A DNA stretch of 32,196 nucleotides from Gammaproteobacteria bacterium (GTDB lineage: Bacteria > Pseudomonadota > Gammaproteobacteria > Thiohalospirales > Thiohalospiraceae), in contig JAJRUV010000152.1 in the NCBI GenBank assembly GCA_024277595.1, positions 1-32,196 of the forward strand. The letters run 5' to 3'. Below, in pieces: positions 1-32,196 of this stretch. The translations under genes and the position numbers were made by a program. The number at the start of each line of letters is the position of its first letter. Within the stretch, counting starts at the first letter, position 1. Under the pieces are notes generated by a model, which ran no database searches, was not told where the DNA came from, and saw only the letters and a list, made by a program, of their open reading frames with translations.

Positions 1-140
1 CCCGAAGGGTTGGCCTGTCAGCGCCCATGGCGGCGTTGCGCCTCTTGCAAAGGGCGATGGCCATTCGCTGCGAGGCGCGCCTTGCCCTGAACGCTGACAG
101 GCCAACTGTATCCTGATTTATCACCTTGACGGAGTACTAG
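1..140 (-). repeat. Half of a hairpin/inverted-repeat element (copy 1)
   Basis: The copy consists of a 9-nt linker (cccgaaggg, 1-9), a 96-nt hairpin (10-105) and a 35-bp terminal arm ending in ggagtactag (106-140). Bases 9-140 are identical to 7923-8054. The hairpin pairs 10-23 with 92-105, and an inner helix pairs 40-44 with 72-76. The second terminal arm is absent because the window begins at the linker. No coding capacity is seen. The family is unknown to me. It resembles a MITE by its arms and a structured RNA or ssDNA element by its covarying stem. Confidence 0.85.
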
Positions 141-7888: not shown

Positions 7889-8054
7889 CTAGTACTCCGT
7901 CAAGGTGATAAATCAGGATGCAGTTGGCCTGTCAGCGCCCATGGCGGCGTTGCGCCTCTTGCAAAGGGCGATGGCCATTCGCTGCGAGGCGCGCCTTGCC
8001 CTGAACGCTGACAGGCCAACTGTATCCTGATTTATCACCTTGACGGAGTACTAG
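7889..8054. repeat. Complete 166-bp hairpin/inverted-repeat element (copy 2)
   Basis: The element runs from ctagtactccg to cggagtactag: a 35-bp left arm (7889-7923), a 96-nt hairpin (7924-8019) and a 35-bp right arm (8020-8054). The arms are perfect inverted repeats except for one base (7920, g, where the complement of the right arm gives a). The hairpin is identical to copy 1. It has no ORF and no obvious target-site duplication beyond CTAG at the arm tips. It is MITE-like in layout, the mobilising transposase being unknown. It sits between the EamA and cupredoxin genes, upstream of the latter's likely promoter. Confidence 0.9.
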
Positions 8055-14954: not shown

Positions 14955-15048
14955 GCGTTTGCGGCGGTGCGGGGCAAGGCGTAATGACGCGGAGTAGCAA
15001 CTCTATTCCAGGGAGTTACAATGCGGTCATATGCTGCCGCAAACGTGC
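14955..15048. repeat. 94-nt imperfect palindrome upstream of the DsrE-like operon
   Basis: The outer stem pairs gcgtttgcggc (14955-14965) with gccgcaaacgtgc (15036-15048), with a 2-nt bulge. Inner pairs are atgac/gtcat (14983-14987 with 15027-15031) and aactc/gagtt around 15000. It carries gggcaaggcg (14972-14981), also found at the same relative position in the 96-nt hairpins of the large repeat family, and a degenerate caatgcgg in place of caacgccgc. It has no 35-bp arms. It lies in the 5' region of the operon, 36 bp from the start codon. Confidence 0.55.
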
Positions 15049-32056: not shown

Positions 32057-32196
32057 CTAGTACTCCGTCAAGGTGATAAATCAGGATACAGCGTTCCTGT
32101 GGTGTTTCGCAGCAAGGCGCAGTGTGCAGGCAATGGCTGTCGCCCTTGTCAAACACTGCAACGCCGCAGCGGGACACCACAGGAGCGCCCGAAGGG
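32057..32196 (+). repeat. Half of a hairpin/inverted-repeat element (copy 3, divergent stem)
   Basis: The copy consists of a 35-bp arm (32057-32091, identical to the other copies), a 96-nt hairpin (32092-32187) and the linker cccgaaggg (32188-32196), ending at the window edge. The hairpin has the same length and the same unpaired blocks as copies 1 and 2 (gcaaggcgc, gcag, aatggc, tcgccctt, gcaacgccgc), but different paired bases. ggtgt/acacc replaces cagcg/cgctg and agtgt/acact replaces gcctc/gaggc. No coding capacity. Confidence 0.88.

Follow-up and report, generated by a model that had tools for sequence, protein, structure and literature searches.

The last 140 nucleotides of the window, as we call the whole 32,196-nucleotide stretch analysed here, are the left half of a non-coding mobile element of about 270 bp, with inverted ends, two inward-facing hairpins and a 4-bp target duplication, and selection maintains the hairpin fold on one strand, the one in which AAGGC comes first. 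The full element runs from a 4-bp target, usually CTAG, through a terminal inverted repeat (TIR), hairpin B, the linker CCCGAAGGG and a reversed hairpin A to the second TIR; contig ends cut both of the copies that lie at the extremities of the window (Table 1). As to function, the reading we favour, at a probability of about 50% and on sequence comparison, is that an IS5-type DDE transposase would mobilise the element in trans and that the hairpin would be a read-through RNA element on which a host RNA factor acts, by binding or by cleavage.

Table 1. Element copies and related features in the window
Feature	Position	Strand	Evidence
Left TIR, 35 bp	32057..32091	+	43 arm matches in the genome
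CTAG, target duplication, first four bases of the left TIR	within 32057..32091	+	CTAG duplication
Hairpin B, 96 nt, sense on + strand	32092..32187	+	folds; covariance-model match at 32100-32179, 93.4 bits
Conserved internal loop, 5' side, AAGGC	32114..32118	+	near-invariant in 125 modules
Conserved internal loop, 3' side, AACGCC	32160..32165	+	AAC near-invariant in 125 modules
Central linker CCCGAAGGG, cut by contig end	32188..32196	+	L008, L016, L201-L203
Central linker of another copy, cut by contig start	1..9	-	
Hairpin A, 96 nt, sense on - strand	10..105	-	covariance-model match at 18-97, 91.3 bits; fold
TIR of the contig-start copy, CTAG at its end	106..140	-	arm matches
Complete 166-bp one-hairpin copy: TIR, hairpin A (sense on -), TIR; CTAG at both ends	7889..8054	-	covariance-model match at 7932-8011, 91.3 bits
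Weak, degenerate hairpin-model match	14962..15039	+	23.9 bits, E 8.6e-4 for the window; read by eye

A first-pass annotation of this DNA had aligned the reverse complement of positions 1-140 with positions 32057-32196 without gaps, and had described the two as different stem sequences of one structure. The alignment was reproduced, and 38 of the 40 differing sites of the 96-nt cores are indeed paired. Where the annotation had counted at least 14 two-sided Watson-Crick changes and a few wobbles, we find exactly 14 pairs that pass from one Watson-Crick pair to another, three more that change through G-U and two that swap the position of one mismatch; all 19 altered pairs are altered on both sides and none on one side only. 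The blocks that it had listed as conserved correspond to the internal loops and the tip. The shared fold thus stands; the two sequences, however, are not versions of one locus but halves of one element. In the five loci where contigs continue past the linker, reversed hairpin A comes next, and since these contigs read B-CCCGAAGGG-A' across the junction, the two copies are different hairpins rather than alleles. The stem feet, compared by eye, are GTTGGCC/GGCCAAC in hairpin A and CGTTCC/GGAGCG in hairpin B; the foot of an integron attC site is RYYYAAC ... GTTRRRY, and we rejected this assignment.

An arm search, suggested in the same annotation as a way of gathering copies, gave 43 matches in the 2.5-Mb, 196-contig source genome, mostly at contig ends: the repeat has so many copies that the assembly broke in it, which is why the window ends inside an element. 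We collected 33 complete elements of 164-342 bp. Those of 164-166 bp have one hairpin, those of 247-271 bp have two, some with a shortened hairpin, and the largest measure 314-342 bp, five of them having insertions within a hairpin and two resembling the rest in their ends only. The arm is present in all seven other genomes of the genus and was absent from all four genomes of two other genera of the family. Some hairpins are broken at the internal loop, by ACCAACAGTAGGCGCTTTAGGCGA in three loci, in one of which (L168) an identical short sequence stands on both stem sides at the interrupted loop, and by an insert of about 71 bp in four more (L060, L061, L070 and L167). A different repeat, with the core GTCTTCCTCAAATCGTGTGGGTAAAATGGTAAATCA, has the same arm or adjoins it in seven loci. 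The left flank AATCCGACAGACTC is common to five copies (one of them, L049, reads GATCCGACAGACTC); the end of another repeat thus seems to have been a target more than once.

The complete elements have the make-up of IS5-type miniature transposons (MITEs), being short, bounded by inverted repeats and free of any transposase gene. Target duplications of the IS5 kind are YTAR (4 bp) or TNA (3 bp). Duplications of this type are present: among the 4-base ends of 55 complete elements, 32 are CTAG/CTAG and three have other identical ends (CTAC/CTAC, ATAG/ATAG and ATAT/ATAT); no inverted end pair occurs among the 55, and in the remainder the two ends are unequal, with CTAG on one side in 17. In a relative whose ends are different, TAA is seen to be duplicated when the occupied site is compared with an empty one; for the copy at 7889-8054, no relative retains both flanks of an empty site. 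In ten loci the element's CTAG closes an open reading frame; target duplication regenerates the TAG stop codon there, so that such a gene survives the insertion whole.

Candidate partners came from related families. The CTAGGGCCTGTTGACGTTTC ends of a Pseudomonas-like element also bound, on both sides, an IS of the Halomonas plasmid pHA020_1 whose transposase is of the IS5 family, and TAGGGAATCTCTGCACGAATC, the end of another family, lies beside an IS5-family transposase on pADP-1, exact at one end and approximate at the other. An IS5-type DDE transposase acting on the TIRs would move the element in trans, as is supported for these two other TIR families; our searches found no transposase or IS with the window's own TIR, and no arm-flanked IS with DDE_Tnp_1 (PF01609) in the family. 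An IS630 found beside the arm was rejected as the autonomous partner, since it has its own TATTAACYCGGC ends and sits inside the arm, and with these other ends it gives no grounds for an IS630-type MITE. Nested insertions, of the IS630 and of a related miniature element with TATTAACYCGGC ends, were seen inside the CTAG arm (L200 and L107 at G003:C51, and L183).

Several counts argue for selection on the fold. RNAalifold found compensating changes in 27 of 36 pairs among 14 modules. In a set of 19 modules, 94.7% of cells pair, and two-sided changes number 135 cells; shuffles gave 42 and slid controls 19-22. In relatives, hairpins with this architecture fold as RNA 6-10 s.d. better than shuffles, and for the copies in the window itself a DNA fold has z values of -4.7 and -2.1. 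For a structure-independent test, 182 unique modules were aligned without gaps, by the AAGGC and AACGC anchors only, and thinned to 125. The covariation score was a G-statistic compared with substitutions reshuffled along a tree derived from the same short sequences, computed with our own script in the manner of R-scape rather than with R-scape, the program proposed at first. With this tree-aware null, 14 of 27 pairs of the structure reach E<0.05 and no column pair outside it does. Most AAGGC and AAC columns underwent 1-3 changes (12 at the first A) and most stem columns 15-36, a contrast somewhat favoured by the use of these loops as anchors.

Could paired changes of this kind arise with no selection on the fold, through template switching that corrects an imperfect palindrome as it is replicated? 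Such correction does occur: in the one-hairpin copy G000:C104:17460-17538 (L302, L391), the 5' side of the loop is now the complement of the 3' arm. This copy, with its AAGGC loop erased, is a natural case of palindrome correction. That all 19 altered pairs between A and B are altered on both sides also fits, and correction may be the source of the paired changes. However, correction should erase unpaired loops, whereas AAGGC and AAC are the most conserved columns, and it makes no distinction between strands. Read on the AAGGC-first strand, Watson-Crick pairs decay to G-T in 100 cases and to A-C in 41 (p 7e-7), or 83 and 38 when two wobble-rich positions are removed. As the covariance model could favour G-U, the count was redone on copies collected by the arm and gave G-T in 89 cells against A-C in 23, these cells being non-independent events. 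With G-T decay 2.5 times A-C and AAGGC and AAC conserved beyond the stems, selection must see one strand, as RNA or single-stranded DNA, and loop conservation and strand asymmetry call for selection besides correction. Correction without selection is therefore already disfavoured, and we regard it as very improbable. Covariation with conserved loops had been named beforehand as the test of a selected RNA or single-stranded DNA fold, and it is what we observe; the opposite outcome, in which correction explains every change and the loops are no more conserved than the stems, is not.

Relatives were detected with a covariance model built from 19 modules: at E<=1e-3 they occur in 110 of 369 class genomes, and at E<=1e-4 in 81 of 398 phylum genomes; the E-values are rough, from a short calibration, and many matches lie far below the threshold. 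Pair layout was examined in 76 loci sampled from the best matches: most are hairpin pairs in opposite orientation, spaced by about 105 nt, with a short linker (usually CCCNNNGGG) between them and, outside, TIRs that vary by family; each of the 38 listed pairs faces inward. Elements with other ends, namely TATACCC in the source genome and ATTAACCCGG, contain hairpins of the same design, and a similar loop occurs in elements with GTAACTATTCAG and CAGGCTATTGAAAAA ends. One related family resides on plasmids of Azotobacter, Halomonas and P. aeruginosa, where the model matches the P. aeruginosa copy and one Azotobacter copy. The architecture is thus present in many genera of the phylum, as counted by anonymous labels, in elements with unrelated TIRs. 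Among the matches listed in a scan of public genomes with the arm pattern, the metagenome-assembled genomes are labelled Gammaproteobacteria, Chromatiales, Sedimenticola and, once, Zetaproteobacteria. A plasmid search with the one-hairpin copy and a phage search with the contig-end copy (32057-32196) gave no match, and viral contigs scanned with the arm pattern gave none. The degenerate match at 14962-15039 adjoins possible inverted ends, ACGGGRTGAA.

The Rfam search that had been advised returned nothing for the hairpins; at the gathering score its only match in the window was a group II intron (group-II-D1D4-2, RF01999, 54.3 bits) at 421-540 on the + strand, near the element at the contig start, and four further loci, searched at a lax threshold, gave nothing above chance-level matches. 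In the literature searched we found neither the arm sequence in any paper nor a description of the element, though single families may have been described earlier in papers or supplements, for example among the Pseudomonas fluorescens repeats.

Which molecule carries the selected fold? With inward-facing hairpins, transcription from either flank runs into a hairpin in the sense orientation before the other one, and it is from this geometry and the G-U asymmetry that we infer a role in RNA. In the reading we favour, a host RNA factor would bind or cut this first sense hairpin at its AAGGC/AACGC loop, and the action of this factor would set the fate of the read-through message, making insertions tolerable. 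The first-pass annotation had suggested the substrate of a transposase or recombinase, or a structured non-coding RNA. A selected single-strand fold agrees with our results, which give no sign that a transposase or recombinase recognises it; the IS5-family ISs sharing the TIRs of two relatives have no hairpin.

Alternatively, the sense strand of each half could fold as single-stranded DNA, on the lagging strand or in a transposition intermediate, and be bound by the transposase or by a host replication or repair protein. Selection on one strand per half fits this equally, the same fold forms with DNA parameters, more weakly, and the hairpins are tied to the ends of mobile elements. One-hairpin copies also show no sense bias relative to neighbouring genes: 11 lie between co-directional genes, three in sense and eight in antisense, small numbers that rest on crude gene calls. 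However, the covariance model finds no hairpin in the IS5-family ISs of pHA020_1 and pADP-1, so that those two transposases need none on their own element, and G-T in DNA is a poorer pair than G-U in RNA. We hold a DNA fold to be unlikely on balance, yet the most serious competitor of the RNA fold.

A two-way transcription terminator carried by the element would explain strong symmetric hairpins, and a bias for tail-repeat-tail positions has been reported for intergenic repeats of Pseudomonas fluorescens (PMC2718517). Yet the copies read have no T run after the hairpins, crude gene calls show no tail-tail excess (9 tail-tail, 17 head-head and 23 tandem), and on a P. aeruginosa plasmid one copy sits between two co-directional acyl-CoA metabolism genes. 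There is little chance, in our view, that termination is the function.

The element shares several traits with known repeats. Like IS5-family-derived MITEs it is short and non-coding, has inverted ends and a YTAR-like 4-bp or TAA duplication and, in two related families, has ends in common with IS5-family ISs; it differs in its conserved covarying hairpins, which the two ISs lack, and in that no IS with its own TIR was found. ERIC (127-bp consensus) and Correia/NEMIS elements are likewise small and mobile, and form long hairpins when transcribed, and the TATACCC-like ends of a one-hairpin group in the source genome bear some resemblance to ERIC ends; unlike them, the present element consists of two inward-facing hairpins with the AAGGC/AACGC loop. 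Effects of RNase E and RNase III are described for ERIC and Correia/NEMIS (PMC2229807), and CIR repeats of Caulobacter and Brucella have two arms joined by a linker (PMC2229807), a layout likened to ours by description alone. REP/RAYT hairpins have a GTAG or CGTC tag at their foot and come with a Y1 transposase. The Pseudomonas fluorescens intergenic repeats (R0, R2, R178, R200 and others) are MITE-like, of this size range and from a genus with members of the present family, to which some of them may belong.

Small palindromic repeats of bacteria are usually taken as decayed transposons. Here, one architecture, with conserved loops and stems free to change in pairs, recurs with many ends and in many genera, which points to a common recognising factor. 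Tentatively, the hairpins may form an unnamed class of structured RNA, defined by an AAGGC/AACGCN internal loop and covarying stems, which would have spread in Pseudomonadota as cargo of many unrelated miniature-transposon families and would recruit a conserved host factor to the transcripts that enter them. The covariance model can be used directly to locate copies in strains that are genetically tractable, and so to search for this factor.
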